Positions 23,746-50,354 of a stretch of 64,000 bases of DNA are shown piece after piece; the first letter of the stretch is position 1, and every line of letters begins with the position of its first letter. Origin of the DNA: Rhytidiadelphus loreus. Lineage: Eukaryota > Streptophyta > Bryopsida > Hypnales > Hylocomiaceae. The notes under the pieces were generated by a model that saw only the letters and a program-made list of their open reading frames with translations, was not told the origin of the DNA and did not search any database. The translations under genes were made by a program, and so were the position numbers. The stretch lies in NCBI GenBank assembly GCA_947034895.1, contig OX344762.1, positions 6,143,501 through 6,207,500 on the forward strand, in the 5' to 3' direction.

Positions 23746-23847
23746 ATGGGACCAACTGTGGAGGTTCCTATGCCCCCCCCTTGTGGATGAAGACTCTGAG
23801 GTTCAACCATTGGAGGTGGAGGACTGCGTCGAGACACTGGCGGTGGG
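23746..23847 (+). pseudogene. Exon 1, 5' part of the ParB-methyltransferase gene
   Basis: Begins ATGGGACCAACTGTGGAGG. A run of eight C at 23773-23780 puts the rest of the exon in the wrong frame; with seven C it reads on as LVDEDSEVQPLEVE up to the element insertion. The last five bases, GTGGG, are the target duplication. The ATG is the first in the joined frame. An upstream acceptor (TTACGTTCAG, ~23702) suggests a non-coding or further coding exon before it. Confidence 0.6.
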
Positions 23848-25408
23848 TGTGAGCCCTCAAGTTGGCACTTGGAACTCTGAACTTATTTTTCGCGATTTTT
23901 AGTTAATTTTTAAGTGAAAAATAGGAAAAAATATATAAAAATACAATTATTGTGGGTTTTGGTAGAAGTCCCTACCAAAGGGGTATGTCATGGCCTTAAA
24001 TGCGTGAAACACGTAAGACGTTACATTTTCACTAATTTTAGGTCTTATTAGTAGAAATAAGTAGTTAAGTTAGTAATTCCGAGCGATGTGAGAATTTGAG
24101 AGTTAACCAGTCCTAGTGTCTTGTTCATGTAATACAACAGCTATAAGTATACATGTAACAAACTGGTTAAAAGTTAGAGTCTAGTCCGAGTCAGTCCAAA
24201 TCAAACTCGAAAGAGTTAGATTTATTGTTTGCAGGTAATTTTGAGAAATACATTCATTCACAGACCAAGATGGAGGAAATGATGATTGGAACATACAGAG
24301 AGGTGCGTTTCTAGGTCAAAGCATGCCAGGAGGTCAAATAGAAGCCCGATCATCCAAGATTCCCCCGGTATCAAGAATAATTTCCCCCCCGGGTGGAAAT
24401 TATTAAAGAATTGCTAAAAATAGCATTCTTATTGGAGATTTGGTTTTGCCCTTAGTTGATGGACATCTTGTAGAAGATTGCCCAAAAGTTTCGGGATTTT
24501 ACAAAACTCCATGATGACTCCATGGGAAGTCAACCGCTTAAAACTGCATTCGTAAATTCCTAGAAATTACCAATGTTGCGGTAAAATCTCACTAAAAATT
24601 AGGATAGAGTTTTGTGTGCCAATAAAGAGCCTTGTCAAGTTTGAAGACATTCCGACATTCCCAAGTACCAGAATTAGGACCGACAGCGAATTTTACAAGA
24701 ATTTACAACTTGGCGGCGGGTTGACCGGCAAACCAGGAGCTAGCGGTGTCCGAATGGAGTGTTTCAAGGGTCAATTCTTACTCCCACAAATATTCTAAAC
24801 CACCCAGGACCAACAGTTTCATCAAAAGACGCAAACTCCAAAAGTTAGCTTTTTAACTTTTGTTCTGAGTTACCGTGACTCAAATTTGCGCTTTAAAACG
24901 GCTAGAGAGGTAGGGGTTAGGGGTCCCTTAGGCTAATTGGGGTCTTCTGAACACGATGGCGCAGTTTGTTTTCAGTTTCGAGTTGTCCCTCAAAAGATAG
25001 AGAGGGTCAGCCCTTAGTTTGACTTTTAAAAGGTAAATTTTGATTAATCTGAGTTGATTTTGCAAATATCTCTTGTAAAATCGAAGATTGGATTTGCCCA
25101 AGATACTTGTCTTGCGTAAGAAGCCATCTTTTGGACTAAAGAAAGCCAATTTAGAACTAACCCTAGATTAAAACACAAAATATCTCGGTTAATTAGGTAG
25201 GTTTTCAAAATATCTTTGGGAAAATCAAATATTTGATTTGGGAAAAGATTCTAAGGCTATTTAGGGCCTAGAAGGAACTCGCTTGAGAACCTTCCTTCCC
25301 ATTAAACAAAGATTATTTTGAAAATACGTTTAGGTAGTTTAGCAAAATATCTAGATTGAAAGTAAAAGATAATTTACGAACAACTTACTGGGGGGGGCCT
25401 GGAGCGAG

Positions 25409-25416
25409 TATATAAG
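25409..25416 (+). promoter_or_regulatory. TATA box of the first LTR-type element
   Basis: TATATAAG, followed by GGCCCTTCCTCGAGG, 1.56 kb from the element start. The corresponding position in the second element holds TATAAAAG followed by GGGGCCCTTC, so promoter position and context are conserved. Confidence 0.6.
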
Positions 25417-26109
25417 GCCCTTCCTCGAGGTTGTTCGTGGCCCTCATTCTTTGTTTCATTCTTGCTGTTGCTCTTGTCGTGCTACCGACACTTGTCGGAG
25501 CACTTTTTAAGCCAAATTTTGGCTCTTTTCTTCTATTTTCTTCTATTCTCTTGTACTTTGAAGGTCCGGAGGGCCCCTTCAAAGCTTTGTTTTCTCTTCT
25601 TGTTTGAATTTGGAGGCTTCAAGCCCCAAAACTTTGCTTTTCAAAGAGTTTAGGTGGAGGAAATCCCCTAATTCTAGTATTGTTTGTGTTAACTAACTTA
25701 TTTCTTGAATTTGGAGGCTTCAAGCCCCAAAACTTTGATATTTTGGGAGTTGTGGGAGTAGTGCCCAAACTCTACTTTGATTTTATTGTTCTTTTGGATA
25801 CTAACTAACTATTTGTGCGAATTGATACTAGTCTGTGAACTTAAAACTTTAAAGCGGCAAGGCTGGACTTTGCCAAAAGGTTTTAAGAATCACCACGTGC
25901 CAAAACTCGTTGTATAACGGGTGTTTGGTTTGAATAGTTGCTAATGTTCGGTTAAACACTGTCATGTGTACCTCCTTTAGTGATTAAACTAAAACTTTGC
26001 CTTGAATTTTGGAAATTAGTTTTTAATGTTCAGTTAAACACTGTCATGTGTACCTCCTTTAAGAATTAAGTTTCAAAATACTAGTTTGGATCCTTGGATA
26101 CTGGTTATT

Positions 26110-26290
26110 CCTGGGATTGCTCCCGCACGGCGGAGCTTTGACTTTGAAACCTGAAAACGGGTACTTGAAACTTTGATTTGACCATTAATTCCTGGGGTTG
26201 CTCCCGCACGGCGGAGCTTTAACTTTTAAAAAAGGTTAAAATTTGCCATTGGAAACCTCGAATTATCTCACACGGCGAAGCTTTGACTTT
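26110..26290 (+). repeat. CGGCGRAGCTTTG repeats, first element
   Basis: The word CACGGCGGAGCTTTGAC or a close variant occurs three times (near 26128, 26206 and 26270), twice preceded by TGCTCCCG. The same word recurs at least four times at the equivalent place in the second element (32752-33070). Confidence 0.6.
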
Positions 26291-26779
26291 AAAAATAAGA
26301 ATTTGTGGAAAAAGATTCTTTTTGAACTACATTTAAAGTCCAAAGTTCCGTCGTCTTAATTCTCTTTGCTTGGCGCATGTGGTGAAGGTATTTTTTGCCT
26401 CCAAGTGGCCATTGATTGCTTGCTTTATCCAAATTGTTTTGTTTTGCTTTGGTTTTCCTTTCTTTCTTTCATTAAAAGGGTTGGTTTATCTTTTTATTTT
26501 GTTTGAATTTAAACGGGAAAAAACTTATTTTTTCTTATTACAAGTGATTAATTAAAATTATCATTCATCTAAAATTTCAGTACATGCACATAAGCTTAAA
26601 AGATTAGCTTTATTTCGTTGCTTATTTGTTCTGCTTAATTATTTAGTTTCCATTGGAAAGGTAGCTAGGTTGGCTTGGATTCGGGAACCAGCAGGAGAGT
26701 TAACAAGACAGGCAAGGGAACGAACGGGGGCTCGAAGTCAACCCTGCCGTGACACGTGTCCCTTGCCGATTGGTTGTAA

Positions 26780-27063
26780 AACGAACGGGGATGACCAGCA
26801 GACGGATGAACGGAAGACCAGCACGCGGACGAACGGAAGAGACCAGTCACGAACTAACGGACGGAATCAAAACGAACAAACGAGGGAGCAGCTAATTATG
26901 CCTCGACACGTGGCGCCTTCCAGCTGGAGGACCGAGACACAAGAAAACCAGCAGACGGACGAACGGAAGAGACCAGCCAACGAACTAACGAACGGAATCA
27001 AAACGAACGAACGGAAGGGCAGCCTATTACGCCCCGACACGTGGCGTCTCCCAACGAGAAACA
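26780..27063 (+). repeat. Imperfect direct repeat of ~150 bp
   Basis: GACGAACGGAAGAGACCAG..CGAACTAACG..GGAATCAAAACGAAC and CGACACGTGGCG occur twice in the same order. The open frame through it (26670-27068) is a consequence of the repeat. Confidence 0.6.
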
Positions 27064-27825
27064 GCTGAAGACAAGGCTGCATATCACAGAGCGTACGGTG
27101 GACAGGGTCGGCCAAGACCTCCAAAGCAACTTAACGAAATCAGTACACTGATAAGCAAATTCTGAAATAAACCAAAGCTCAGGCGGTTGATTGCCACGCA
27201 AAGAAATTTCTTTAAGATTCACATAAGTACATCAAACCACTTAGCTTCCACAATAGCTCCGTCTCTCTCCTCCAAAAACATGGAATACAAATGAAGGGAG
27301 ATTAAGAGAAGAAGGGAGAAATACGGTTGCAAAACGGAAGTAAGCAATTAAAAAATATATTAGGGAAGAATCTAACTATTCATCGATTAATTGTTTTTGA
27401 TTGTTTATTAGGTTTATTCTTTCTACTATTCATCGATAGATTTGTTTTTGATTGTTTTTGATTATTTTATTAGAATACTATTCATCCATTTGGTTTTAGT
27501 TATTAATTAGGATTCCAAATCCAAATTAGTTGTTTGTTTGTAGTTTGGGGGATTTGTTTTATTAGGCCTAATAAGCCAAAACAATAAAAACAAACAACAA
27601 CTAATATCTTGGAATACTTAATAAAATAACTATTAAAAAATTGGCAATCGAATAAAACTACTATTCATTGAAAACTTAGGAAATATGAATTAAATTTATC
27701 ATTTAATTTAAATTCCTAAAATCAAAGGATTAGTTTTAAAATTGCCAAAACTAACAAATTTGGACTTTTTAGATAGGTTTTAAAAAACAAGAATACTAAG
27801 ATTTCTTCCAAATTCATGAAAGACA

Positions 27826-27897
27826 ATGGAGAATTTCGAGGAGACGATTATGATGGTGTTTTGCGATGATGGGACGATCGACATTCTCGACACCAAG
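27826..27897 (+). other. Short ATG exon with splice donor inside LTR-type element 1
   Basis: A 24-codon open stretch beginning MENFEETIMMVF ends at CCAAG|GTATGA. The second element has an equivalent 21-codon stretch (33861-33923) ending at a GTGAGT donor. A conserved short coding exon before a donor suggests a spliced leader used by the parental retrotransposon. Confidence 0.4.
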
Positions 27898-29053
27898 GTA
27901 TGATTTCAAATTCTATCTTTTGTCTTTTCTTTTGCTTTCATTCTTTAAAAATTTAGATTAGAAAATTAAAACTAACAAAACTAACCATTACAAATCCAAT
28001 AGCTAGTAGAATTTAAATTGTTAGAAAACCTTTGAAAATTTAACTAAAATCGTAAGGTAATAATTAGAATAACTTTGAATTCATTTGGAAAACGAAATAG
28101 TAATCTCATCCAAAAGAATCTCAAAAGGAATCTAATTTAATTTAGGAACTTAGGGAATATTAGAATAATTAGGGAAAGTCAAAACCTAATTTATCTACTT
28201 ATTCTCTTGAAAATTATTAAAGGAAGGAATTCCATCCAACCAAGGGGGATTTTCATCCATTTAAAAGTTTTCACCTAAAAGTTCTAAATTCTTACTTTTT
28301 ATTTTAACAAGAAGTTAATTAATCACTTTACTCATAAAAACCCTAAAACCCTAAAGATTCACTAAAATTAGAATAATAACTTAGAATTAGGATTAATTAA
28401 GGAACAATTAGGAATATTCTCAAGGCACGACTAGGGAATCTTTTGGAAACATAATCTTTTAAAGAATCTTTTGAAGATTCTAAATCTACCTTTTACTTTT
28501 TAAATTACTTTAATTTGGAAAGATTTAAGGGTGGATGAAGTTTTGACCTAATTTTGGATGAAAAATCTTAAAATAGGTCAAAATTAGGTTTTCTCTAAAA
28601 ATTCCGTTAAATAACTTAATTAACCTTTGAACCCTGAAATTTAGATTTATTTTACATTATTTTGCTATTCTTAGTTGACGGATGAAGTTTTTAGGATAGA
28701 ATTAAGTACGAATTTCATCCACACATAACTTTCATTTGGTATATCAGAATCCAACTTGCTTTACCATTTTGGAAATGGCAAATTGTATTCTTTGATTTAG
28801 TTTAGGTAAAATTTTAGTTTAGCTAGAAGTTGAAATCACAATTAACTAACCCTCAACAACCTTTATTTCTTAACTATTAGAGTGTCTTGAAATACTTAAA
28901 TTAGGTAAAAATCAACATAACAAAGTGTCCATTGCTTGGAAGGCCAAAGAACACTAAGTTTACATTTCACCCTTACAATTTACTAACTTATGCCGCTAGA
29001 ACCTGTGTGCAATTTTCTGACTTAAGGGTGGAGTTAGAAACACTCACAGTGGG

Positions 29054-29411
29054 GGACCAACCACTGGAGGTGGAGGTCGAGCTCCTTCGGAACACGTCGA
29101 CGGAGACGGGTGACCAAGCCCAGATTCCATCACAACCACTAGTAAGTTTTGCGAGGCAACATGGAATACGAATTCAGTGTGGTGGTAGAGGCTTAGTGAG
29201 TCGTGTGGATGGAGATAGGTCCAAGAGTTCATCTATTGGATCAACAAACGATAGTGATTCGAATTATGTAACTCATGAGACTATTAAGTATTGTACTTGT
29301 GATCACGCAGAATTAGAGGTGACATCCGCAGTTGACACGGATGCCAAAATCTTGATCTGGTGTTGTGGACATTATAGACCATTGAACGTCAAATGCGACT
29401 GTGGCATTTGA
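29054..29411 (+). pseudogene. Exon 1, 3' part of the ParB-methyltransferase gene
   Basis: Continues the frame broken at 23847 (ETLAVG then DQPLEVEVELLRN). It contains a Cys/His-rich segment, CTCDH..CCGH..KCDC, that could bind zinc. The donor to exon 2 is not certain: the frame meets a stop at 29409, and the best GT sites lie just before or after it. Confidence 0.6.
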
Positions 29412-29548
29412 ATGTGATTCTCATTTATATATTTATATTTGATGAGACATATTTTTACAACTTGATCTAGGAGTGTGAAATGACACCTATACATATAGCT
29501 ACTCGTCACATTATAATAATCATGCATGACATTCTTACCTTGTCTCAG

Positions 29549-30204
29549 ACTAGCGTAATGTCGAAGTCAATGTTGAAGCCCCCCACTGTCACTAGTTCTG
29601 CAATGTTGGAGGATGAGCGAAATCCCGAAATTATTTCTGAATCAGATGAGGAAGATATGGATATTCCAGGAGTGGGCAAGGATGCAATGGAGGATGACAT
29701 CAAGAAGTCACAAAAATTGGACACTGTTTCAATTCTTCACGGTCTGAGGTTGACATCCACAGAGGCATCACATATGAAGATCCCATTGTGCAGGCTGGTG
29801 CCTAGGCCAATAGTGCGTCCAACTTTGGCCTGCGATATTACATTGTTGGAGCATCAGTTCACGGGGGGCTACAAAGAAGGGGCCCAAGTGTTTTATGTTT
29901 CTATCTCAAATGAAGATGGGGACGGTGAGGTATTCTCTGATGCAAAGAAGATTGAATGGGGATTATTGTAGAATTCCGTCAATGATGAATTCAACAACTT
30001 CTTGAGGTCCGACCCTATGCTCAAGCATTTGGTGGATCAAAAGTTTTTCATTTGTGATGGAAACCACCGGAGAATTGCGTGGATGAACCACATTACTCGG
30101 CTACATGCCACGGACAGGAGTTGACACATCAGCGTCAACTCTATCGTATTGGATACACGAGGACGTATTGGGGTCGTGATGCAAGCTATACACGACATCA
30201 ACAA
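29549..30204 (+). pseudogene. Exon 2: ParB/sulfiredoxin-fold domain
   Basis: Follows the acceptor CTTGTCTCAG. An acidic linker (SESDEEDMD) leads into the ParB-like fold: IPLCRLVPRPIVRP, then GGYKEGAQVFYVSI, then KFFICDGNHRRIAWM. The D-G-N-H-R signature corresponds to the GxxR/HR nucleotide-binding motif of ParB and sulfiredoxin proteins. In bacterial relatives this domain binds CTP or acts as a nuclease. Two in-frame stops interrupt it: TAG at 29969 and TGA at 30121; each becomes a sense codon (CAG, CGA) by one C-to-T reversal. The exon ends AACAA|GTGAGC and joins exon 3 in frame (..DINK-HIESYH..). Confidence 0.75.
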
Positions 30205-30311
30205 GTGAGCTTCCCGTTTCCAATTTATATCATTGTTATATTTAGATTTTAAACTCCAATATATTTTCTTCTGGTTTGATGATCCAAATTGTAATGTCTT
30301 TTGAGATACAG

Positions 30312-30501
30312 GCATATAGAGAGCTATCATGTCAAAACCAATCTCGTACACACCCTTTTTCAAGTGCAGAAATACGAGACAATGGAACTGGACAAGTTCA
30401 CTGAGTTGCTATCCGCCGAAGAGTTCAAGATCTGTCAGAACAATACTCGATCTAAATGGTATACGGTGCCATTAGAGGTCTTCACTTCATTCATCTTCAA
30501 G
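30312..30501 (+). pseudogene. Exon 3 of the ParB-methyltransferase gene
   Basis: Bounded by ATACAG| and AAG|GTGAGC. It encodes HIESYHVKTNLVHTL and a helical region, completing the ParB-like domain. No defect seen. Confidence 0.7.
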
Positions 30502-30596
30502 GTGAGCAATTGTCACTATTGGACTCACGTACAAGGTCTACGCATTTGATTCTCTTTTTCATTGTTGTTGGGTGATATGCATTGTCTCAACAAGAG

Positions 30597-30785
30597 ATTT
30601 CTGCAGCGGCGGAGGTGGCTATTTGTAAATATAAAGAGGACATTTTGGCTGAGGATGTGATGCCTGATGGAGTTGCCATGGCCATGAGGGTCTCCATCAA
30701 AGACTCAAACGAGAAGTACCAAAAGAAATTGTCAAAGATAGTGGCAGTCGCCAATCCCGCCCTAGGACCTGATTGGCTATTGGAG
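30597..30785 (+). pseudogene. Exon 4 of the ParB-methyltransferase gene
   Basis: Bounded by CAAGAG| and GAG|GTATGT; 63 codons, phase 0 at both ends. It encodes a predicted helical stretch (AAAEVAICKYKEDILAEDV). No defect seen. Confidence 0.65.
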
Positions 30786-30872
30786 GTATGTTGTATTCCA
30801 TACTTCATTGTTTACTTGCTGATACTCTGAGATATAAATGGTGATTCATTACTTCTTCACCAATTGATGCAG

Positions 30873-31070
30873 ATCGAACGACACTGGAATCTATTTTCAG
30901 TTCCAGAGTTAACTCTAGAGAAGCTGCAAATGATGGCCACTGCAAATGCTACTGCAGAGTCCAAAGTGAAATGGCTGAAGTGGATGAATGCATCCGGATC
31001 CACTAGAGAGGCGCGTCGATTTCCACCTCGTCCCATTAACGAGGAGAAATTGGCATTGTTTCTGGCTAGG
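30873..31070 (+). pseudogene. Exon 5, 5' part of the ParB-methyltransferase gene
   Basis: Follows TTGATGCAG|. It encodes IERHWNLFSVPELTLEKL and ends in CTAGG, the target duplication of the second LTR-type element. The frame resumes at 34946 (LAR then ACWYSG) and ends at a GTATGC donor after 34963. Confidence 0.75.
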
Positions 31071-32332
31071 TGTGAGCCCCAAATTCGTCACTTGGGACTC
31101 ATTGTTTTCTTTTTTTTAGTTTATTACAAATTAAGTCATAAAGTACTACAAAAAGCCCAAAAAAGAGTGTAGAACCAAAATAGGTATGTCACGTACCAGT
31201 ATAGCATTTGGTCATATATAGCCTTTTATCCATAGATCACCCATAAAACCCACTTGTATATAGGTTAGAACCCGTAATTAGTGGGAGACAATAGGGCTAC
31301 TGGGAATTTACCCAAATTAGCCCAAACCTAGTGCATGTGACCATGATAGGCTAAATTAGTCTTAGGAGAGTTAAGGGGGTCCCCACGTAAATCTCCAAAG
31401 ATAGGTTCTAGTTTCCCCATTCCACCGACGAAACATTAGGAATCCAAATTGTTAGCTTGCAGGTGTTACTTGTCCCAGACAGGCCGCATGGAGGAATCCA
31501 CAGCCGCCGGATAGTGTTCTCGGATCTGGAACATGTCGGGATGTCCACGGCAAACCCCATTCGCCAAGATTCCCTCACATGTAAAAGATTCCCTGACTGC
31601 CGGTGATTCAACCGAAGTCAGTTTTCACCTCGCCACCAACTGTGTGCTATAATAGCCTAAGACTTGGCACGTGGCTTGGGGGACTCCATGAGAGGTTCCC
31701 CAAAAAGTCTCGGTTTTTTCTGATCTCCAAAGGATCTTTTTCCGAGCAGTCAAACCGTCAAAGGCCACATTGAGAAATTCATGGAAAATACCCAGGCCGC
31801 GGTAAAATCTCACTAAAAATTAGACTAGCATATTTTATGTTAATAATGCGCCCCGACAAATTTCATGGTGTTCCAATAGCGGGAAGCAGCCGAAACTGAC
31901 AACATCCCCCCAATTAATAATTACGGCAAGATCTTTGCGGGGTTGACCGGCGTCTCGGGAGCGTACGAAGTCGGAACAAAGACATCAAGGAGCCTTTTCT
32001 TACTCCCTAGAGCCTCCCCAACAACCCTAGCTAGTTACCCAAGCCAAAAGAGGTAAAACCCAAAAGTTAGGTTTTTACCCTTTTAATTGGCTCTAGTTGG
32101 CACTAGTTTCCGATGGGTTTTTTGTGATAGAAATAGGGGGTAGGGAGTACCTTAGACTAAAAATGACATTCTGAAGCCATTGGCGCAATCCATTTGCAAT
32201 TCCGAGCTAAACTCCAAAAGTTAGAGGATAGGACCAGCATAAAACCCAAAATTAGGTGAAAATCTCAAACTTGGATGAAAATCCGGATGGATGAGGTTAC
32301 TCGTCGAGGGGGGGAGTGGGCCCTTGGAAACC

Positions 32333-32340
32333 TATAAAAG
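32333..32340 (+). promoter_or_regulatory. TATA box of the second LTR-type element
   Basis: TATAAAAG in a GGAAACC..GGGGGCCC context, 1.26 kb from the element start, matching the promoter at 25409-25416. Confidence 0.6.
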
Positions 32341-33860
32341 GGGGCCCTTCTCTCTCCCAAAACACCCCCAATACTTGTTTTGGGTCCGTGGGTCCAAGTT
32401 ATCTTGGAATTTTTGGCCTTTCAAGCCAAAAAACCTCTACGGTGTTTTTGGAGCACTTTTGGCTCCCGTTGTTGTTCTATTTCAAGCTTCCGAAGGTCCC
32501 TTTGGGCCCTTCTATCTTACCTTGTACCTTGTTGTGGGTCGAGTGAGTTTCACTTACGCTTGCGTGTCCCCGTTGTACCTTGTACTAATCCTAAAGTCAC
32601 CCCCCACCGTACCTTGGCGATGTCGCTTTGGGGGGCCTTTAGTATGTAAGTCTGGCCTTGTTTATGCTTACTTTGTGGGTACGGTTGCCTTGTATTTCAG
32701 TCCTAACCATAGTCAACCTTCCGTGTGTTGGGTGTGGGCCCCACTGCCCTGAAGGCGGCGAAGCTTTGAACCTATAAACTACCCTAGTCTTAGAGTGTGT
32801 GTCAAAAACCAGGCCTTAGACGGCGAAGCTTTGGACCCAGGGGCATCCCAAGTCTTAGAATTGGTGTCAAAACCAATTTGGCGGCGAAGCTTTGCACCCC
32901 ATACATTTTTGGCTCCAAAGTTTAGTTCCCAAGATCTTCTTGGGAAAAGCCAAAGTTTAGCCCCCAAGAGTTGCCTTAGGTTGTAGGAAAGTAGCAGCCC
33001 CCCCCGTCACGAGATAGCGAGATTAGGAGTCACAAAGTCCAAGGTTAACCCCCACGGCGAAGCTTTGACCTTGACCCTAGGCAAACGGCTTCCGGTTTAA
33101 TTTTGTGTAGGTGGGTTCCCATACGGGAACCCGAGGGTGAGGAAATTTTGGGTTAAGCCAAGCCAGCCCAGCCCAACTAGCCAGCCAGCCAACCCGCCAA
33201 TCCAGCGGCCGGTACAGCAAGCGATCCAGCAAGCCGGTCCAGCAGCTGGTTGCTCTTAGCAGCTGGTTGCTCTCACAACTGGTTGCTCTCACAAAACGGG
33301 ACGATGCCCTGCGGGGCCCCAACCTACCTTTTTTTTGGATTTTTTTCCCAACAAGACTAAAAATTGGGGGTCTAGTTAGTGGGTATTAAAAAAAACGTTG
33401 ATCAATCCTAAGAGCAAACAAAGGGAGGAGGGAGGAAAAGAAGTCGCCGTCTGCACACCCGACCTGCACATGCAACCAAACGCTCTCACATCCCTCCAAC
33501 AAGACAAAACAAACAATGGAGCGAAATTAGAGAGGGACATGACTAAGTAGGGAAGGAAGGAGAGAGAAGATCAATAGTAAAGTAGGCTTAGGGGTGTAAG
33601 GAAATCCCCAAAAGGGTCTCTCCAACCATTAGAGGAAGGATGAGAATGACGCGGAGCATGACGACGTAAGGGGGTAGTTAGGCTCACAAGAAGTTAGCGT
33701 CATAGTTGTAAGACTCCATTAAGAGTTTGGTAGGAATAGTGTGGGAGTAAAAGAGGGGGAGACAAAGAGAAAGAAAGGGACCATTAAGGGTCATTATAGT
33801 GCACTACTTCGCCAAAGACTAAGCCGTAGGCATTTGACCGCTTCAAAATACGTGTCTACT

Positions 33861-33923
33861 ATGGAATACGAGCACGCGGCTGGAGGTATGGAGAAAAATG
33901 CCGCGCATGCCAACGACAATCAG
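33861..33923 (+). other. Short ATG exon with splice donor inside LTR-type element 2
   Basis: Twenty-one codons (MEYEHAAGGMEKN..) end at CAG|GTGAGT, the counterpart of 27826-27897. The peptides differ, but the position, size, ATG and donor are kept. Confidence 0.4.
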
Positions 33924-34239
33924 GTGAGTCAGTAAACTAATCCCCGGTGCTTTTTCTTTTAATTTACGCTAAACTCTGTTAAGTAGTGATGAATTTCGAT
34001 TAGCAAATAGGAATTAGGGGGGGACCTTAAGTTTAGACATAAAAGTTTATCAATAGGACTAGAAGTATCCAAACCCATCTCATACATAGAAGTTGACCAT
34101 AAAAGTAACCAAATTAGACTAAGATCGATAGGACTAGGAATTAGTAACCGTTAAGGTCAGAACTCAACCAAGAAGTAAACACTAGATTAAGACAAAATAA
34201 TCTAATTAGGAGTTAGGGTTAAATTAGCAAATCAAAAAT

Positions 34240-39235: not shown

Positions 39236-40010
39236 AATTATACACTTGTAGAATGACTATTTGAGATTTGCTTAAATCCATAGGGAAAGTTTTTATTTAA
39301 ATCTCTTTCCTCTAGTTTTAGGTTAGAGGTGAAGATAGTAAGTAATTCATAAGTACAAAGATGCTTGGTGAATCAAAAAAATTAAATGGGGAAGGTATTG
39401 CAAATATCTTCATGCATTATTCTGTATTTTGAAATACACTTGATAAATTGTAGACCCATAGGGTAAATCTTTGAGCTTTGCATAAATTAAATCAAAAGGG
39501 GAAGTTTTCATTTAAATCCCTTCCTCACTAATTTTTTAAGTTAGAGATGAAGGTGGTAAATCATGCATGACTACAAAGATGCTTAGAGAATCAAGAAAAA
39601 TACCCTTGATAAATTGTAGACCCATAGGATAAATCTTTGAGCTTTGCATAAATTAAATCAAAAGGGGAAGTTTTCATTTAAATCCCTTCCTCACTAATTT
39701 TTTAAGTTAGAGATGAAGGTGGTAAATCATGCATGACTACAAAGATGCTTAGAGAATTAAAAAAAAATACCCTTGATAAATTGTAGACCCATAGGATAAA
39801 TCTTTGAGATTTGCATAAATTAAATCAAAAAGAGAAGTTTTCATTTAAATCCCTTCCCTACTATTTTTTTAAATTAGAGATGAAGGTGGTAATAATTCAT
39901 GAGTACAAAGATGTCTGGAGAATCAAAAAAATTAAATGGAGAAGGTATTGTAAATATCTTCATGCATTATTTTGTATTTTGAAATACACTTCATAAATTA
40001 TAGGTCCTTT
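39236..40010. repeat. Satellite-like AT-rich tandem array, unit ~167-210 bp
   Basis: Five copies of a unit starting TAAATT(G/A)TA(G/C)A and containing GAAGTTTTCATTTAAATC and GTACAAAGATG.TTGG, with starts near 39236, 39445, 39611, 39777 and 39991. Long units include an extra GAAGGTATTG..CATGCATTAT segment. Confidence 0.75.
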
Positions 40011-40484
40011 AGTAGGATAATTCGTTGATATATACATAAATTAAATCTAAAAGGGAAATTTTTCTTTAAATCACTTCCATCTAATTTTTAAGTTAGGGAT
40101 GATGGATTGATGGTGGTAAATAATTTATGAGTACAAGAATACTTGGAAAAAAGAAGAATTCAAGTGGGAAAGTTTTTTATACAAATCTTTGTGCATTATT
40201 TTGTATTTTAAAATCCACCTCATGAATAATCACTAGAAGAGAAAGGAATGTTTTAGGTATGGTCTTAGCAATATAGTTCTATAATTTATGACCTTCTAGC
40301 AAATTATAGTAAATATTTATTAGAAATACATTTGTTTTCAATAAAAATTTACTAAAAATCTCCCTAAAGATCAGAAGATTGTAGGACTGTACTACTAGGT
40401 TGTACTTAAAACAACCTTTTCTCTTGTAGAGAATACATTGTTAGGATGTTAAGCTCTAAAGTCTCAATTGTCTTTGTAGCTTGG

Positions 40485-41340
40485 AAAATGGATTTCGGGC
40501 AACTTCATATAAGGTCAATTTTTTATGAAGCTTTTTATACTTTTTCATGATATAGATAAACTTGTTAGTTTTATGGGATTGTAATTTGTATTTTAATTGG
40601 TGCCAAAGAGCAAGAGTTATACCACAATAAGCCTAAATATAAATTAGGTGAACAAAAAAAATTCACAAAAATTTGAATTAAAAATTAAAGTTTTTTTGTT
40701 CTCATAGATTGGAATTTTTTTGTACTTCAAAAGCTTTGGTTCATTTTTGGGGGATTGATGGTATGAAAGTTATAGAGCATCTTTTTTTGTGAGCAATCAT
40801 AGTATCATATTAAAAAAAATTAAGCATAGGATTCTTTTGGGCCACTCAAGTTTCAAACTTTTTCAAAACAATTAAACAAATAAGTTCAAAAAATTAACTT
40901 TGATTCATAGAACAATCTCACCATTGGGATTAGTGTGTTTTAATTCCATTTTAAAGCTATTAATGATAAAGTTTTTTCTCTCTATGATGTACTTTCTTCT
41001 ACTTAATAATTTTTTAAAGAATGAAACCACATTATTTTTAAATTTTAAATTTTTTATATTTTCAAATCAATTTTGAATGATGAAATTTTTTTAATTCAAG
41101 ACTATAATGTAAACTTTTTTAAGTTAAGAAGATTCAAAGTAGCTTGTCAATATGTCACAAATGTGATTTCTTCACTTTGAACGCATTTACCTTACAATCT
41201 ATGTGGTGAAAGTGTTTGAAATTTTTTCCACACATTGTCATACTATTCTACTTTAAGATCCTACGATTACATATTCAAAAATACCATTAATTTTTTTTTC
41301 TTTTTGTACTAGAAATAGTAGTTTTGAAAGTTTTTTTGGA
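40485..41340. mobile_element. Relic of a piggyBac-like element
   Basis: Shares TTTTTTCCACACATTGTC, AAGATCCTACGATTACAT and TACTAGAAATAGTAGTTTTG with the TTAA elements. Its own ends and TTAA duplication are not preserved. Confidence 0.45.
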
Positions 41341-41346
41341 CAATTG

Positions 41347-41580
41347 CAACAAAGAGGTCGCCCCTAGGGACCAGAAGTCGCCCCTAAGGACTAGAGGTCG
41401 CCCCTAGGGACCAGAGGTCGCCTCTAAGGACCAGAGGTCGCCCCTAGACCTGCAGTCGCCCTAGATTTTGGACCCGCAGTCGCCCCCTACCCGCGGTTGC
41501 CCCTAGACCCGCAGTCGCCCTAGATTTTGGACCCGCAGTCGCCCCCTACCCGTGGTCGCCCCTACCCGCGGTCGCCCCTC
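41347..41580. repeat. GTCGCCCCTA short tandem array near the element's right end
   Basis: At least ten GTCGCCCC or GGTCGCCT words spaced about 20-25 bp. The inverted counterpart at the left end (35400-35440) has only two or three. Confidence 0.75.
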
Positions 41581-41774
41581 ATGAAGCACGCCACGTCACA
41601 GCCACGTAGGACAGTTCGTTTTACCTAGGGGTAAAAAAATTTGAAATCCGAAATCCGTACACGACAACAAAAACCGCCCATACTCGACAACTCGACAATT
41701 CGACATGCGACATGCGACGTCTATTAGACACAAAAACCCAAAATTCTGTCAGACAAGACAACCATGGGGGGGAG

Positions 41775-42407
41775 ACGCTTACAAGAAGTCAGACAACTTC
41801 AAAGACTACAAGGGCGCAATGCTAGCGGTTCACCATGTCATCTATAGGTATTTTTCACTCCTTCCTTCATGTACTTGTTTTACCGATTCTCCTCGTTTGT
41901 GCATGCTTAGGGTCCTTGGGATGGTAGTCTCGGTGCCGAGACTACTGAAATTAGTGCTTCACTCTTGCAACATGGGCTGCTTGCTAAAACTGCCTTTCAT
42001 TCATTTTACTCTCATTTAAACCCTTGTTGGTGGTTCATTCAATTAAGCTTTAGAGTACGTGCTTGGTATGCTTCACTAAATTTGGTGAGATGTCTTCAAA
42101 TTGGTGTGATTAATCCAAACAAGCATTTGTAACTGACATGTTCCATCATTGTCATCTTCCTTTTCATATGCACAGGTATTTCAAGTTCGAGTTGTATGCC
42201 AAGAAGGCCATAGCCAAGTCTGACTTGCCACCATTCCTGACGGCTTGGTTGGATAGATCGAGGGATGACTGCATGTTCTCAGCATGGCAACTCCAAAACT
42301 GGACCACTCCACATCTTCAAGCCTGCCCTTGGTACATTGAGTGCAACTTGGGATCCATTCCACCCGAGGAGGCACCTTTGTTCAAGACATTGAAGGAACA
42401 CTACTAG
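41775..42407 (+). pseudogene. Exon 6 (3' part) and exon 7
   Basis: 41775-41847 resumes the frame after the Mutator-like element (MFRGG then DAYKKSDNFKDYKG) and ends TATAG|GTATTT. Exon 7 starts at 42176 after ATATGCACAG and joins in frame (HVIYRYFKFELYAKK). It ends at a TAG at 42405, after LFKTLKEHY. The stop is one C-to-T change from CAG. It could be the original end of an exon, but methyltransferase motifs continue downstream. Confidence 0.7.
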
Positions 42408-42699
42408 AGAAGTAGTGAAAACCAAGACAAAATCAACAAATTTCTGCTGGAATCAACATGAAAATGATTTTTCCTCATCAAACACAATTTTTTAGACACG
42501 TTTTGTGTTGGTTAAATAAAAACCAACATAATTTTGTTACATTTTTTAGAATTTTGGAATCTTTTGGAATCTTTTGAAATCTTTTTGGAATCTTTTGAAA
42601 TACCATAATAATACTAGAAAATTTGCAAACATCACCTTAAAACACCAAAAAAACACTCAAAAAATTTAAAACACCACCTACAAATGCCCTAAAAACAAC

Positions 42700-43215
42700 G
42701 CAGAAATGCAAAACAGCACTCCCCAGTGCCCAAAAAACGACTCAAAAATGCAAAACAACACTTCCAAGTGCCCAAAAAACAACTCAAAAATGGAAATCAG
42801 CACTCCCAAGTGCCCAGAAAACAACTCAAAAATCCACAACAGCACTCCCAAGTGCCCAAAAAAACAACTCAAAAAAGCAAATCAGCACTTCCAAGTACCC
42901 AAAAAACGACTCAAAAATGCAAAACAGCACTTCTAACTTCCCCAAAATCAACTCAAAAATGGAAATCAGCACTCCCAAGTGCCCCCAAAACAACTCAAAA
43001 TTGGAAATCAGCACTCCCAAGTGCCCAGAAAACAACTCAAAAAAGCAAATCAGCACTCCCAAGTGCCCAAAAATCAACTCAAAAATGAAAATTAGCACTC
43101 CCCCAAGTGCCCAGAAAACAACTCGAAAATGCAAAACAACACTTCCAAGTGCCCAAAAAACAACTCAAAAATGGAAATCAGCACTTAAAAGTGCTCAAGA
43201 AACAACTCAAAAATG
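42700..43215. repeat. 42 bp minisatellite, ~12 copies
   Basis: Unit CCCAAAAAACAACTCAAAAA + TGGAAATCAGCACTCCCAAGTG. The period is a multiple of three, so all three plus frames and one minus frame stay open with a 14-residue period. There is no sign of true coding. Confidence 0.9.
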
Positions 43216-43275
43216 AAAAAAATGAAAAACTTTGGAATTTGGTGTTTCTTTAATTTCAGAAGATTTCAACAGTCA

Positions 43276-43590
43276 TTTAGGCATAGTAAAATAACTTTTT
43301 TCAAGAAACTTCAAACTAAGAAAAGTTTTAAGATGAATTTAAGTTTCATCTCCAAAAAACCGTTTGATATTTCAATCATCCAATCAAAAGTTATGGACAA
43401 AACATCAGAGGGGGGTTCAAATGGACATTTTTTCTACATTTTCAAACACCCTCTCTTATTTTTTTCCATAACTTTTTATTGGAGAATTGAAATCCCAAAC
43501 GGATTTTTGGAGATGAATCTTAGATTCATTTAGCAACTTTTCTTAGTTCAAAGTTTTTTCAAAAAAAATAATTTGCTATGCCTAAACGGC
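43276..43590. mobile_element. Fold-back MITE
   Basis: Left arm TTTAGGCATAGTAAAATAAC.. and right arm ..AATAATTTGCTATGCCTAAA are inverted. The arms continue through AACTAAGAAAAG/CTTTTCTTAGTT and GGAGATGAA/TTCATCTCC for about 120 bp. Confidence 0.7.
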
Positions 43591-43674
43591 TACCAAAGTC
43601 AGCTGACTTAAGAAACATAGAATTTTAAATGGTTAAGTATATTTTTTATTTCCAAATAGACATGTAGTTGCAAT

Positions 43675-43745
43675 GGGTGGTGTGGTAGTTAGTTCATGGG
43701 GCTTGTACATGGGAGGTCTCGAGTTCGACCCCCCATGGCGGCAAT
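43675..43745 (+). mobile_element. tRNA-derived SINE head (fragment)
   Basis: GGTGGTGTGGTAGTTAG..GGGCTTGTACATGGGAGG followed by GAGTTCGACCC resembles pol III A and B boxes (B-box consensus GGTTCGANTCC). No intact tRNA cloverleaf and no clear SINE tail were seen. Confidence 0.45.
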
Positions 43746-43997
43746 GGCCTAATGGCGAGACTGTCCGGAATTTCCGGGCAGCGGACAGTTTCTATAAATA
43801 GCAATTTTGTCCTGCCCGGAAATTTCGGGCAGCCCCCAAAAAATTCGATTTTTTTTTTATTTTTTAAATGTGTCCAATCCAAGAGAAAATCAGCAGAAAA
43901 TGTGTTAATAAGGAGTCCGAACCAAGTGTTCCTAACCCACAGAGAAAACCAACACATTTTCTGTTGAATTTGTCTTCATTTGGACTGTTTTCTTCTG

Positions 43998-44441
43998 GTA
44001 GTGGAAACACTGGTTGTTGAGCCTGAATTCGATGAGTTTGCTGGACTTGATCCAGAAGCCCGATCGAAGGCCATTGCCAAACGGGATGCGTTTGACAAGA
44101 AGAAGGTGGAGAGGCTGGAAGAGGCAAAGAAGAAGACGGAGGATATAAAACTCAAGAGATTGGCAGCAAAGGCCGAGAAGGAGCAAGAGAGGGCAAAAAA
44201 GAAGGGCAAGAAGAGGAAGGCCGAGACTCCCTTGCAGAAGCCAGCAACTAGCGCCGCAGACGTCAAGGACACGTCATCTAGCTTTTCATTGACTCAGGAT
44301 CGACTCGTTCATGGTCTCACGCCACCTGTTCATCACTTGGATTTTGACCCAGCTATTGACGAATGCATTTTGAATATTTCGTTGCGGGGTCTAACCCGTG
44401 ACAAAAAGGCCCTTAAAGCCGTCGAAGGCTTCTTATCCATG
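43998..44441 (+). pseudogene. Exon 8 of the ParB-methyltransferase gene
   Basis: Encodes VVETLVVEPEFDEFAGLDPE, then a strongly basic coiled-coil-like region (KKKVERLEEAKKKTED.., KKGKKRKAE, a likely nuclear localisation signal). It then opens the methyltransferase domain (LDFDPAIDECILNISLRGL). Ends at TCCATG|GTATTT. The acceptor is uncertain because the upstream edge is an insertion or repeat. Confidence 0.65.
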
Positions 44442-44618
44442 GTATTTTGGTTGTGTGCCTTATTTTCTATTGAATTCAATCCTTCATGGAACATGAATAT
44501 GATGCATGCCTATTTCATATTCATTTTGTTCATTGCTTGTCTAATAATTTTAATCTGTCTTTAAATCCATTTTTGAAATTTTCCAAATTCTTAATCTCCT
44601 CTGAATGTTTTCATGCAG

Positions 44619-44942
44619 CATGCTAGCGACAAGCAACGCTACTTTGATGGAGTCTTGACTATAGAGTCTGCGGTGGACTTGATTCTTGTTGATGTTCCAG
44701 AAGGACTCCATGTGCCTACCGTATCAGCTCCTCCTGCACCGATTCTGACGTGGAACTACTTCTCAGATGATTGGTTGATTCCAGTCTTTGACTTTGCAGC
44801 TGGTTATCTACACGACAATGGAGCACTTATTGTGATGTACCCATCCTCTTCGAAGTCGCACAGGAGCTAGCTTCTTGGATGCTGCAAAGAATATGGATTC
44901 AACATTCTCGTGGATTGGTGGGGTATGAACCACCTTCACTTG
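44619..44942 (+). pseudogene. Exon 9, 5' part: methyltransferase motif IV region
   Basis: Starts after TTTTCATGCAG. AVDLILVDVPEG sits where beta-class DNA amino-methyltransferases have D-L-I-x-x-D-P-P-Y, so the catalytic [DNS]PP[YFW] is replaced by DVPE. LHDNGALIVMYP follows, corresponding to the LKPGGxLxV strand. A TAG at 44868 interrupts the frame, which otherwise runs on through EYGFNILVDWWGMNHLHL to the CACTA element; TAG is one C-to-T change from CAG. The last three bases, TTG, are the CACTA target duplication. Confidence 0.75.
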
Positions 44943-45349
44943 CACTATAAGAAAACTGTGTTTTTTGAGATTTTGAGATTTAGACATCCACACGTCTGTA
45001 CTGACGTTTTTCTACGTCTGCAAGGACATCTTGAAACTTGCGTCTTGCGCAGACATGCCAAAAACATCGAAAATCTGGTCGGACATCACAAATTATTCGC
45101 CAGACATCACAAAAAACATGGGTCAACGGGGTCCTGAAAGGTCGCCATGTGGCTGCCACCTAAGTGCCACACATGCGTGGGAAGCCATGTAGGATTTTTT
45201 TTCCATCAATGCCCGTCCATGACGTGGCATCTGAGGTGGCATCTGAGGTGGCATCTGACATTGCATTTAGTAAGGATGATATGGCATGCCACGTCAGCAC
45301 ATTTCTTTGCCACATCAACGCATTTTCCTGTTGTTTAAGAAATTTAATA

Positions 45350-45550
45350 TTGTTTTTGAAGACATCAACTTAGACGTCTAGACGTTTTGAAAGACATCAA
45401 TTTAGACATCTAGACGTTTTGAAAGACATCAACTTAGACATCTAGACGTTTTCTAAGACATCACCTTAGACGTCTAGACGTTTTCTAAGACGTCATTGTA
45501 GATGTCTAGACATTTATTGAGACGTCAACTTAAACATCTAGATGTTGTGG
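45350..45550. repeat. CACTA sub-terminal repeat array
   Basis: Six to seven units of about 37 bp of the form GACATCAACTTAGACGTCTA + GACGTTTT..A. Such sub-terminal palindromes are where CACTA transposases bind. The TCTAGA core is itself palindromic. Confidence 0.75.
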
Positions 45551-46662
45551 GATGTCAATGTAGATGCCCTAATTTCACCATAAATATTTCTTGCAACGTC
45601 CAATATGATTTAGAAGAACAAAATGATGTCACTTTTGACATTTATGTGGTCAAATGTGCTATTTGGCATAATGTCAATATGGACAATTACACAAGTCCTA
45701 CATAATGCACATCCAAATTTCATATATAATATACCATATACAATACATAATATGCCATACAAAATACATTGTATTAAGAATTATGTCATATAACTCCAAA
45801 TGTATTTCAAAAATGTCCAATACAACATGTCATACATAGTACACCATATACAATACAAAATACACCAAACAAAATACACCATATTTGGATATTATAGTAC
45901 ATGACTTAAAAGTCACTTGATGTGATTATATAGAGAGGAGAAGACAACCTCTTTATACAAGAGGGATGGTGGAAAGTTAGACAAACAATATGGGATATGG
46001 AAAACACAAGAATTGTTACAAGTAGAAATGCAGACTGCATTTAAACGTCTAGACATTTTCTGAGACGTCATGGAAAACATCAAAAGTACATGTTGATGTC
46101 TCCTATGATGTTGGTATCAACACTAATATATAAGTAGATGTCGTAGGTAGTTGTCTTTACAAACTTAGACACCGATCAAAAAGCATCAGTGTAGACATTT
46201 GTAGTTCTCATATATGGTGTTAAGGCATTGCATACAATTGTTTAGACCAGTGCTCTAAATGATACCAAGCAATGTATCATACAAGGAATACATCTTGACA
46301 AAGGCCTAGAGATGGAAAGGATGTGGAGTTTTTTGTCTATAGTCAAGGCTCTTGCAACCACAAAGAGTTGTTTGTTATCCACCCTAAATAAAATTCTTAC
46401 CTTTTGCGGAGTGGTTGACATTTGTGAGAAAGAAAATTGAACATTTTGAAAAGTTGTGTGCCGAATAGAGGTTAGGAGTAATGGAAGGCACTATACGTAC
46501 TCCACCCAATCCATCCTGAACATGGTTCAATTGCAAAATGATAGGGACTTTGATGGACTACAACCAATGCAAGAAGTTGACTCAATGTAGCATTCCATAG
46601 ATGAAAAAAGAGCCTACTTTGTCATTGTGGGTGACAATGCAATTCTTGAGGTTGGAGCTTAA

Positions 46663-47579
46663 CCCCTAAAGGACCAAGGTCTTTTTCCTGCCAAAAAACA
46701 GTCAAAATTGCCATATCTATAGCAAAGAGTGAAAAAAAATGAAAATTGTTTTTTTTTCATATCTAACCGTAGGATCTTACATCTAACTAGTATAAGAGTG
46801 TGGAAAAAAATTTAGAATTTTTGACCGCACAGATTGCAAGATATCTGAGTTTAAAGTGAAAAAAATAAGTTTTCAGCACCTTGTAGGACTAGATTTTCTT
46901 ACTTTGAACATTTTTAACTTAAAACTTTTGCACTACAGAGTTTTGAGATTTAAATATTTATGGTGGATAATTGAGTTGAGAGTCTAGGGGAAAAAAAATT
47001 CAAAAAAACTTAAGTATCATTCTTAAAAAAATTGTTAAATAGAAATAGGTACAAGATAGAAGGAAAATCTAAAATATCAATATATTTTAGATGGAATTAA
47101 AATGCACTAATCTCAATGGTAGGATTGTTCTAGAAAGTAAATCAGACCATGTAAGAAAAAATTGAAAAAAAAAAATTGCATTAAATAATGAATCCTACAA
47201 GTTATTTTTTTCAAGAAGACGCTCTAACTGCCTGAAAAACAAGAATGTCCATAACTTGCTCATAACAAATCCAAATGAAATGAATCAAAGCTTTCTAGAT
47301 AGAAAAAAATATAATCTATGAGAAAAAAATATTAAAAAAAAAATTCAAATTTTTGTCTATTTTTTTTTTGCTGCCCGGACTGCCCATCCCCTCGTTTGAG
47401 CTTATTTGGTCATAACTTTTGTTCCCAGGCATCAATTGTGAAAAAAATTATATTCTCACAAAGCTTATCAATTTTTCCATCTCCAAAAGAAGTTTCAAAA
47501 AATCACAACAAAATTTCTGCTCGTAAGTACCTGCCCAAAAACACATTTGTCCCCTGAGGGGACAATGGTCCTTTAGGGG
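46663..47579. mobile_element. piggyBac-like non-autonomous element nested in the CACTA element
   Basis: TTAA at 46659-46662 and 47580-47583. Ends CCCCTAAAGGACCA and TGGTCCTTTAGGGG are identical to those at 35779-36303. The 917 bp interior shares many phrases with the other copies. Confidence 0.88.
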
Positions 47580-49326
47580 TTAATACGTCCATGTTCTTTG
47601 TATATATGTGTGATAGCTTGCAAATGTCATGTAGAACATCTAAAGGATAGGGCAGCTTGTCCACTTCTATATCTTCTACAAGAAATTGTTGTCTTGAAAA
47701 CATTCATCGGGTGACAAAGTAATGATTGTGGATGTTGGGTGTAATGTGTATGTGACATCATCTGAACAGGGAAGGTTCACTATAAGAAACCCGCATTTTT
47801 TTGAACGTTAGCAACAAACAAGGATGTTTTTCAAAACAAGAGCACAAAGATGGGATTGCAGCCATAGGAGGTAGAATTGAGTTTGATGTTTCAAAAAACG
47901 TTTGCATGTCATAGGTGGAACAAATTGATGTCTTGTGCAACGGTAATGTTCTAAAAGACATCAAGAAAAATATAGTTGTGTTTTGTACAACGTCCAAGAA
48001 AACACAGAAATGTCACGTTGGCAAGAGCTTTTGGTTTAACTTTGGTTAAATTAGAGAAAGTTACTATGGATTGAGGTAAAACCCTAACCAAATATAAAAT
48101 GCAGGGGAAGGTCACTAGGTCAGCCATTAGACAAGTTTTTTTTTTACATTTAAAAAAATTTAAAAAGTGCCAAGTGATGTGGCATTTGATTTATTTTTTA
48201 TTTTTTATTTTTTATTTTCATTTGGCTTAGGTGCATCCCAACTCCATGATAATAAAAAATAAATCATAGTATAAACTAAACTTGGTAAACTTCACTTCAC
48301 TTAAATAGACTCAAATTCAAAAAATATCAAAAAATATGGCATCCAGCAAGGATGAAGTGGCATGCCACATCAGTACACCTAGACACCATTCAAAAAGTTT
48401 AATAGTGTTTTTTTTGACATCAACTGAGACATCAATTGAGATGTCTAGATGTTTTTTGCAATATCAACTAAGATGTCAAATTTGACAGCTTTGTATAATT
48501 TTGAAAAATTACATATCCCATATAGTTTGTCATGCCTCCTACATCCCTACTTGTATAAATAGTATGCCTTTTCATGTCTATTTACACACAATAATTGGCT
48601 TTTAAGTCATGTGACATAAATACCAAATATTGTGTATAGCATATTGTGTATAATGTATTGTGTATTTTGTACAATGTACTATGTATTTGTATGGGCTATT
48701 TTTTATGGTGTATGTGAAAGTTGATGTTGCAAAATATTTCAATGTCAAAGCTAACATCTCAGAAAATGTGTCAAAAGACATCTGAATAGATGTCGCCAAA
48801 AACAATATCAAATTTTTTGTTGACGTCTAAGTTGATGTTATTCAAAACAACATTAATCTTCTCAGACAATGTCACGTCAGATGCCACGTCAGCATTTTTC
48901 ATGCCATGTCAACATTTTTCATGTCCACGTCATTGAATTTCATGTCATATACCACATCACATGCCACATTAGCTTTTTTTTTCACCTTGGGCAGTTATTT
49001 TCTTCTAGACTACAGTAATTTCTACTAATTTATCCATGGTTAAAATGAACTAGGGATGCTGACGTGGCAATGATTGTTTCCTCGGACAATCTTTGAAACA
49101 TCATTATGTCTGCAGTCATGTCTTTAACGGCATAGTTGTTTTTGCTAGCACCTAATGCTATGACCATAATTTTCCTCTATTTTCTACAACATCCACATAA
49201 ACGTACACTTTCATTGCATCTGTCTAGTAAACATCTCAATGTTCATGTGGACATAATATGTCTAGCCAAAGACATGCTACGTTTTGGGTTCGACATCCAA
49301 AAAAACACAGTTTTCTTATAGTGTTG

Positions 49327-50354
49327 ACATCAGCAATTGATCCCAAGAAAACGGTAATAACCATTTCATATTCATTTTCATGATTTCCATAAATTTACCT
49401 AAACGATTGACTAATCAATGATTCTTTCTTGTTTCAAACCCAACGGTTTTCAATCGCGCTTGTGGTCAAGAAGTCTAGACCAAAAACGGAGGACGACTTT
49501 CCGTTCCAGCATGTTCCTTCACACGCGAAGGTCGGCGTCACCGTAGGCAAGGATGATTGCCTAAGGAACCTATGCTTCGCCGAGGAGGTCACTATAAATG
49601 GTAACAAACCATGGCGTGGTCCTAGAGAGAAGGCGTCGGGTTTCATGGCGATGCTTATGGAAGGGTGCTGTGAACCTGGATCCGTTGTCGTCGACTGCAC
49701 GGCAGCTACAAGTACATTTCAATGAGTATTTAATACATTCTGTTGTCACCTTCATTTTGTATAATTTGGAAGACATCTCATAAATGTGACGGATGCGCAG
49801 GTACTAGCATTCTGGCTTGCCGAGCCACTGGACGTCATGTTTTAGCCTTCGAGGAAGATGAGGCTATCTTTGAGGCACTTAACAAACCAATCATTCGTCA
49901 AGTTCCGTTTCTTCCTACCGCAGTCACACGCGGCGTTGATGCTGCAGTTGATTTGGATGAGGAAGAAGTGCCAGCACAACAAATTGTGAAGACTTCATTC
50001 TTCAGTAAGTAAGTTACACCGGTTCAGCTTCCTCATTGATAAATTTATTTGGATCTAATTTACCCTTCATCTAATATATGGTTTACTTGATTGTATAGGC
50101 AAGCGGCAAAAGTGAGACCCGACTCACATATTCCATTCTTCGGAAACCCTATGTTTTTTCCGAGTCCACCAAAACCGTTTCTACTTCCCGAATACGCGGA
50201 ATTTCTTTCTAGGGATTATGTTGCCTTAAACCCTAGGCCTAGTTATAGGGCTAATCTTGTTGATCCTCGTGTTCTTCAGTTCATTGATGATAGCGCTGTC
50301 GAGTCAGATATGGAAACATCTGACAATGAGGGAAGTTCTTTATCATCTGACTAA
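49327..50354 (+). pseudogene. Exons 9 (3' end) to 12: C-terminal methyltransferase part
   Basis: 49327-49353 completes exon 9 (TSAIDPKKT|GTAATA). Exon 10 (~49438-49711) reads RFSIALVVKKSRPK, then PREKASGFMAMLMEGCCEPGSV; exon 11 (49801-50008) follows in frame. Together they give VVVDCTAATSTSILACRATG and a VLAFEEDE strand, which is the position of SAM-binding motif I (normally DPFxGxGTT) and the acidic loop after it. Exon 12 (50099-50354) encodes a Pro-rich then acidic tail and ends in TAA at 50352. The exon 10 acceptor reads TTTCAA rather than CAG and may be lost. Introns GTACAT..GCGCAG and GTAAGT..TATAG are normal. Confidence 0.75.

Follow-up and report, generated by a model that had tools for sequence, protein, structure and literature searches.

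We analysed a stretch of 64,000 nucleotides from Rhytidiadelphus loreus (Bryopsida; Hypnales; assembly GCA_947034895.1, contig OX344762.1, positions 6,143,501 to 6,207,500, forward strand), hereafter the window. Positions 15498–54730 of the window are a degraded copy of a large, multi-copy DNA transposon that resembles Mutator-like elements (MULEs) and is about 20 kb long when complete. The element carries a transposase-like gene on the minus strand and, on the plus strand, a methylase-like gene whose predicted protein has a DGNHR motif in its N-terminal part and a C-terminal domain related to DNA amino-methyltransferases. A preliminary description of this DNA had taken the methylase-like gene for a plant nuclear gene fusing a ParB-like domain to a methyltransferase. 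Its exons belong to the transposon, as the second gene of that element, and not to a single-copy host gene.

Searching the genome (407 Mb, 489 contigs) with the N-terminal part of the protein returned at least 103 matching loci, the window's included, at 56–95% identity. This count is a lower bound, with 103 candidates scored out of 3035 passing a first look, and the family is probably larger. Three copies, designated C2, C4 and C1, share ~94–97% mutual identity in long aligned blocks. Both ends are preserved in C2 (5044–24366 in its own coordinates, 19,323 bp) and in C4 (4258–24312, 20,055 bp), and the termini common to these two copies form an imperfect inverted repeat of ~54 bp (score 51 against a shuffle mean of 16.8, reached by 0 of 500 shuffles). 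C2 is flanked by a 10-bp target-site duplication (TSD), GAAGGTGCTG, exact at 10 of 10 positions. The TSD of C4, CGTC(A/G)GTTGC, agrees at 9 of 10 positions and was read from the flanks by eye, an exact-match search having returned none there. C2 and C1 are separated by 15 substitutions at a synonymous divergence (dS) of 0.007, and the family has therefore spread recently. The left terminal ~1.3 kb of the complete copies has no match in the window, where homology ends at 15498; the right end is kept at 54730.

The methylase-like gene comprises 10 exons encoding a 1076-aa protein in the C2 model, and is free of stops in C2 and C1. Gene models were tried at six loci and gave stop-free frames in three: C2 and C1 from the start codon, and F61, a lineage at 61%, over 1023 aa with its start not located. 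The models of C4, F66 and F84 broke off at a landmark, and tblastn separately showed that F66, F84 and F56 have exons containing in-frame stops. Relatives with open frames thus exist elsewhere in the genome, as had been anticipated. The window copy itself, with exons 92–98% identical to those of C2 at the DNA level, is broken: exons 1 and 7 contain in-frame stops, and exons 4, 5, 6 and 7 carry insertions. Its splice sites, described earlier as good, are so for the most part, the acceptors before exons 3 and 8 having been lost. Altogether, six later insertions, each with its own end signatures, interrupt the window copy.

The peptide segments reported in the preliminary description were found again on the plus strand: DGNHR in exon 1, AVDLILVDVPEG at 44670–44705, LHDNGALIVMYP at 44808–44843 and RFSIALVVKK at 49444–49473. 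PGSVVVDCTAATSTS is present but not contiguous, since an intron splits it (VVDCTA at 49687–49704, the remainder from ~49801). The proposal that these segments form one spliced gene is borne out by relatives elsewhere in the genome, which carry the same exons in the same order. The gene had been given a start at 23746; our model begins near 29558, and 23746–23847 belongs to the element but precedes the gene.

The C-terminal part aligned with bacterial and phage beta-class amino-methyltransferases in hhalign with a probability of 96.8 (E 2.3e-10, 205 columns). Two unrelated pairings, the N-terminal part against methyltransferases and the methyltransferase part against ParB, gave no match, and the comparison therefore discriminates. 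The methyltransferase profile PF01555 matches a homologous protein of Ceratodon purpureus at 30.4 bits, above the cut-off of 26.7, and copies from the R. loreus genome at 17, 24.6 and 24.9 bits, all under it. PHROGs gave a DNA methyltransferase family (E 6e-4), and the methyltransferase part matched DNA methyltransferases among PDB sequences (best E 0.062); tblastn against phages gave weak matches (best E 0.01 among the matches listed, 20 of 164 records), and viral contigs, searched with the methyltransferase part only, gave none. Judged by profile and by the order of its motifs, with motif IV before motif I as first proposed, the derivation of this domain from beta-class amino-methyltransferases is secure.

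Its catalytic motifs are changed. Motif IV reads DVPEG in C2, F66, F84 and F61, DVSEG in F56 and DTPF in Ceratodon, so that the canonical (D/N/S)PP(Y/F/W) is lost in all five own-genome lineages in which the exon was read and in Ceratodon as well. Motif I, compared with the FxGxG loop that binds S-adenosylmethionine, appears as DCTAATGTS, DCVASTGAS or DLSASTGAS, with one glycine kept. Relative to beta-class N6/N4 amino-methyltransferases, among them the bdelloid enzyme N4CMT as portrayed in parts of PMC8885841, the protein shares the profile match and the motif order and differs in the replaced motif IV and in its fusion to a long, helical N-terminal part with DGNHR. Because motif IV is changed and the catalytic SPPY is essential in N4CMT (PMC8885841, in part), ordinary catalysis by the methylase-like protein appears doubtful, and deposition of N4-methylcytosine (4mC) or N6-methyladenine (6mA) in the ordinary way, suggested earlier, seems unlikely. 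We therefore file the protein as methyltransferase-derived and not as a working enzyme.

In the N-terminal part, DGNHR lies inside a conserved block and is invariant in three aligned relatives. This part gave nothing significant against phages in tblastn (best E 3–4) or against PDB. A phage ParB–methylase fusion was sought as a yardstick; three phage loci were taken up for this, and the two long methylases scanned among them showed no ParB domain. Matches to PF01555 and to the ParB profile PF02195 on small contigs of the assembly (L001–L008, L062–L066) were set aside as probable contaminants or associated bacteria; two such loci that were read, at 50–64% GC, carry bacterial-looking methyltransferase and ParB genes.

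The Ceratodon protein (hypothetical protein M758_1G295400, our P0001, 1147 aa) has the architecture of the element's protein, differing in its motif IV, and holds both parts in one predicted chain, in agreement with the preliminary description. It was the one relative retrieved from the protein database with the N-terminal region (38% identity over the region searched) and again the only one with a three-row alignment; the full-length spliced query had no match there. Between C2 and F61, nonsynonymous divergence (dN) is 0.246 with saturated dS over 1023 codons, and the dN/dS ratio is 0.06–0.21 where computable. The methylase-like protein is therefore under purifying selection between lineages. 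In the methyltransferase part, dN is 0.298, again with saturated dS.

On the minus strand of C2, open reading frames (ORFs) of 755 and 491 aa look, by eye, like a single transposase whose N-terminal region is rich in histidine, whose C-terminus is SWIM-like and which contains a D...D...C-x2-H stretch. The second of these ORFs matches the Pfam SWIM profile PF04434 weakly (E 0.3, 11.1 bits against a cut-off of 19.6). The first ORF stands divergently upstream of the methylase-like gene in C2, C4 and the window and, at 36–82% identity, in five of five other lineages examined, and the pairing of the two genes is therefore old. Like MULEs, whose TSDs measure 8–11 bp, the element has 10-bp TSDs in both copies with both ends, together with terminal inverted repeats (which some MULEs lack) and a candidate SWIM-like motif. 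Accessory ORFs are also known in MULEs; those given in PMC6446971 include SET, PMD, DUF, FAR1 and others, and the word methyltransferase is absent from its main text. Since the weak match to SWIM at E 0.3 is all that Pfam returned, we call the element MULE-like and do not file it as a MULE.

The non-coding DNA of the element contains short repeated motifs. The space between the two transposase ORFs, presumably an intron, holds a 16-bp palindrome, GTCTCGGnnCCGAGAC; the methylase-like gene has the palindrome in its intron 5 and a variant of it on its 3' side. The 12-bp core of the palindrome, CTCGGnnCCGAG, was counted 23 times within C2 and 27 times within C4, against none in 12,677 bp and 11,945 bp of their respective flanks; the window has 3 inside the element and none in 24,767 bp of flanks. 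Upstream tandem arrays are present in four of six lineages examined, with units of 118 bp in the C2 type and F84, 61–307 bp in F66 and 139 bp in F56, and F61 and L060 contain related palindromes at 3 sites and 1 site. Comparing the 118-bp unit of C2 with that of F84, 65 of 118 positions are identical overall but 23 of 23 in the core AAGGTCTCGGCCCCGAGGGCATG, a footprint that speaks for a bound site. Array length varies much among near-identical copies, since the 118-bp array of C1 (L043, 1–7125) extends over ~7 kb with 59 core matches, where the scanned stretches of C2 and C4 have 22 and 28.

Array sequence was also compared within and between lineages. F66, a lineage at 66% (L053, 1623–3425; L055, 305–2051), has the motif GGGGATCAGTATGCCTTCACGCCCCC arrayed upstream and its reverse complement downstream, which leaves the gene between two arrays that face one another; the score was reached by 0 of 500 shuffles. 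For C2, the relation between upstream and downstream arrays is not convincing (19 of 500 shuffles in direct and 66 of 500 in inverted orientation). Its upstream array compared with that of F66 gave 152 and 26 of 500 shuffles, and with that of F56 7 and 0 of 500, the latter a weak GC-rich similarity. The positions of all features are collected in Table 1.

Table 1. Features of the transposon copy and of the insertions nested in it (window coordinates).
Feature	Position	Strand	Basis
Degraded transposon copy	15498..54730		Collinear blocks 87–95% identical to C2 and C4; one block, which includes the array, 79–80%
Transposase-like gene, second large ORF, SWIM-like C-x-C...C-x-H	15630..17091	-	85–88% identical to C2 491-aa ORF
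Palindromic site in presumed transposase intron, 1 mismatch	17282..17295	-	
Transposase-like gene, first large ORF, broken in this copy	17395..19626	-	90% identical to C2 755-aa ORF
118-bp tandem array, core AAGGTCTCGGCCCCGAGGGCATG, a one-sided version of the palindrome	22478..23604	+	
Nested insertion, LTR (long terminal repeat)-like TG..CA, 5-bp TSD GTGGG, not element DNA	23848..29048		
Exon 1, DGNHR at 30056–30070, two in-frame stops	29558..30204	+	
Exon 2	30312..30501	+	
Exon 3, acceptor lost	30591..30785	+	
Exon 4, first part	30873..31070	+	
Nested insertion in exon 4, TG..CA, TSD CTAGG	31071..34940		
Exon 4, second part, starting with 5-bp target duplication	34941..34963	+	
Exon 5, first part	35075..35235	+	
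Nested insertion in exon 5, 9-bp TSD	35236..41765		
Exon 5, second part, starting with 9-bp target duplication	41766..41847	+	
Palindrome GTCTCGGTGCCGAGAC in intron 5 of methylase-like gene	41927..41942	+	
Exon 6, first part	42176..42398	+	BLAST edge 42401
Nested CACTA-type insertion in exon 6, TSD GAA	42399..44003		
Exon 6, second part, basic K/E-rich linker	44004..44441	+	BLAST edge 44003
Exon 7, motif IV region DVPEG, one in-frame stop	44619..44942	+	
Nested CACTA-type insertion in exon 7, terminal inverted repeat CACTATAAGAAAACTGTG, TSD TTG, with 32-bp repeats containing GACATCTAGACG	44943..49323		
Exon 7, second part	49324..49353	+	
Exon 8, ending at motif I (VVDCTAA), acceptor lost	49438..49710	+	
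Exon 9, remainder of motif I and next helix	49801..50008	+	
Exon 10, C-terminal tail and stop	50099..50354	+	
32-bp tandem array 3' of methylase-like gene	51400..51632	+	
Right terminus, counterpart of the inverted end of C2 and C4	54660..54730		Right end common to three copies

Two observations stand apart from these features. A nested insertion at 20006–20950, bounded by TTAA and with the ends CCCTAAATG, is piggyBac-like by its signature as read by eye. At 3306–4457, on the minus strand, a 383-aa ORF matches Terpene_syn_C_2 (E 6e-12) and represents a microbial-type terpene synthase, a type in keeping with a non-seed plant.

Taken together, the best reading, which we hold with moderate confidence, is that this is a wrecked copy of a large MULE-like transposon that encodes a DNA-binding protein of its own, probably an anti-silencing factor with a design like that of VANC. 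We infer that the methylase-derived protein is a factor for element-specific sites. More specifically, the DGNHR N-terminal domain, the basic linker and the methyltransferase-derived C-terminal domain with its changed catalytic motifs would bind the palindromes or array sites, and the bound protein would most likely keep the non-coding DNA of the element free of host silencing marks; alternatively, it may help to assemble the element for transposition. The working mode would be like that of VANC of VANDAL transposons, on a palindrome of the size of bacterial parS. According to passages of two studies, VANC binds motifs in VANDAL tandem repeats, which turn over, and causes loss of methylation (PMC5735166, PMC13317346). 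In these accounts the Arabidopsis system also combines a transposase with a second element-specific protein, and short motifs are repeated in non-coding tandem repeats, introns included, that differ among related elements (PMC5735166, PMC13317346). Here too a transposase is accompanied by a second, constrained protein, and a short motif, presumably bound by that protein, sits in the non-coding tandem repeats of its own element, with arrays that turn over between lineages; the accessory protein differs in being methyltransferase-derived with a DGNHR domain, and its anti-silencing role is a proposal. Among the titles and abstract openings listed in our literature searches, which covered few subscription papers, none describes a plant transposon with such a protein, which is weak evidence of absence.

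Bacterial parS is a 16-bp palindrome. With the DGNHR-type motif and candidate palindromic sites of that same length, the element recalls bacterial ParB–parS, and we tentatively consider a more specific version, less probable in our judgement, in which a ParB-like protein with a dead methyltransferase as its fusion partner would load on the 16-bp palindromes in arrays and introns and shield the element from host methylation, as a parS-like partition or anti-silencing system of its own. The likeness of the site to parS is only suggestive, and the system departs from the bacterial one in having no profile homology to ParB_N in the tests made. The ParB domain of the preliminary description was accordingly given up as a profile assignment, leaving the DGNHR motif and its position; the ParB label is best treated as a motif-level lead.

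Several results weigh against the proposed binding role or against parts of it. The N-terminal part matched neither the Pfam profile ParB_N (PF02195) nor, in hhalign, any of four bacterial ParB proteins from the small contigs of the assembly, and the motif itself is DGNHC in the decayed F56 copy and NGNHR in L030. A structure model of the Ceratodon protein from its single sequence was uninformative (predicted local distance difference test score, pLDDT, 35.5). The ParB-like and methyltransferase parts have infinite dS, so that no ratio is available for those parts, and the young pair C2–C1, at a dN/dS of 0.57, has too few changes (15) to show constraint. No Pfam transposase match to a MULE or DDE domain was obtained at E 10 in the transposase-like ORFs, which sets the element apart from MULEs. 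The footprint in the 118-bp units of C2 and F84 was aligned on the core itself, even though TRF found both units independently. Within ~4 kb upstream, L060 has no array and F61 only 2.2 copies of a 19-mer, and the palindrome was not found in F66 and F56, both of which carry arrays of other sequence. Finally, the palindromes and arrays could be bound instead by the transposase or by a host factor.

The transposase in particular deserves attention, and we regard it as possible, if rather unlikely, that the palindromes are its sites and that the methylase-like protein has another job, for instance a structural or accessory one in transposition. Transposases commonly bind subterminal repeats, and the palindromes do lie in presumed introns of both genes, with an array adjoining the transposase. 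The outermost 100 bp of C2 and of C4, at both ends, showed no palindrome, however, and the pairing of the two genes persists in five of five other lineages, which calls for an element-linked role of the second. Another possibility is that the protein is active as a DNA amino-methyltransferase and places 6mA or 4mC on the element. This would fit the secure domain homology, the A-x-T-G of motif I kept in C2, F61 and Ceratodon, and the dN in the methyltransferase part despite saturated dS; we consider it improbable in view of the altered motif IV in the copies read and of the need for SPPY in bdelloid N4CMT (PMC8885841, in part).

The remaining explanations concern the nature of the locus. Lateral acquisition, from phage or bacteria, of what became a host nuclear gene with paralogues would be consistent with the introns and with the prediction of the Ceratodon homologue as an ordinary gene. 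The location of the copies within an element whose ends are defined and which is flanked by target duplications, the number of loci, and two copies as close as C2 and C1 already contradict it for this genome, leaving it very unlikely. A provirus or virus-derived element, suggested by the large size and the methylase-like cargo, is the least credible of all: no viral hallmark was seen by eye among the listed ORFs of the window and stretches of C2, Pfam on ten ORFs showed none, and the 10-bp target duplications fall in the MULE range given in PMC6446971.

These results also carry a caution, in that plant matches to PF01555 may be transposon genes and not host writers of 4mC or 6mA. Sequence-specific anti-silencing by transposons is already known from Arabidopsis VANC. 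If the reading proposed here is true, a second system of this kind, built from a methyltransferase-derived protein, would suggest that the anti-silencing strategy arose more than once, and the element, with candidate DNA sites in hand, would offer a compact test case for the escape from silencing in early land plants.

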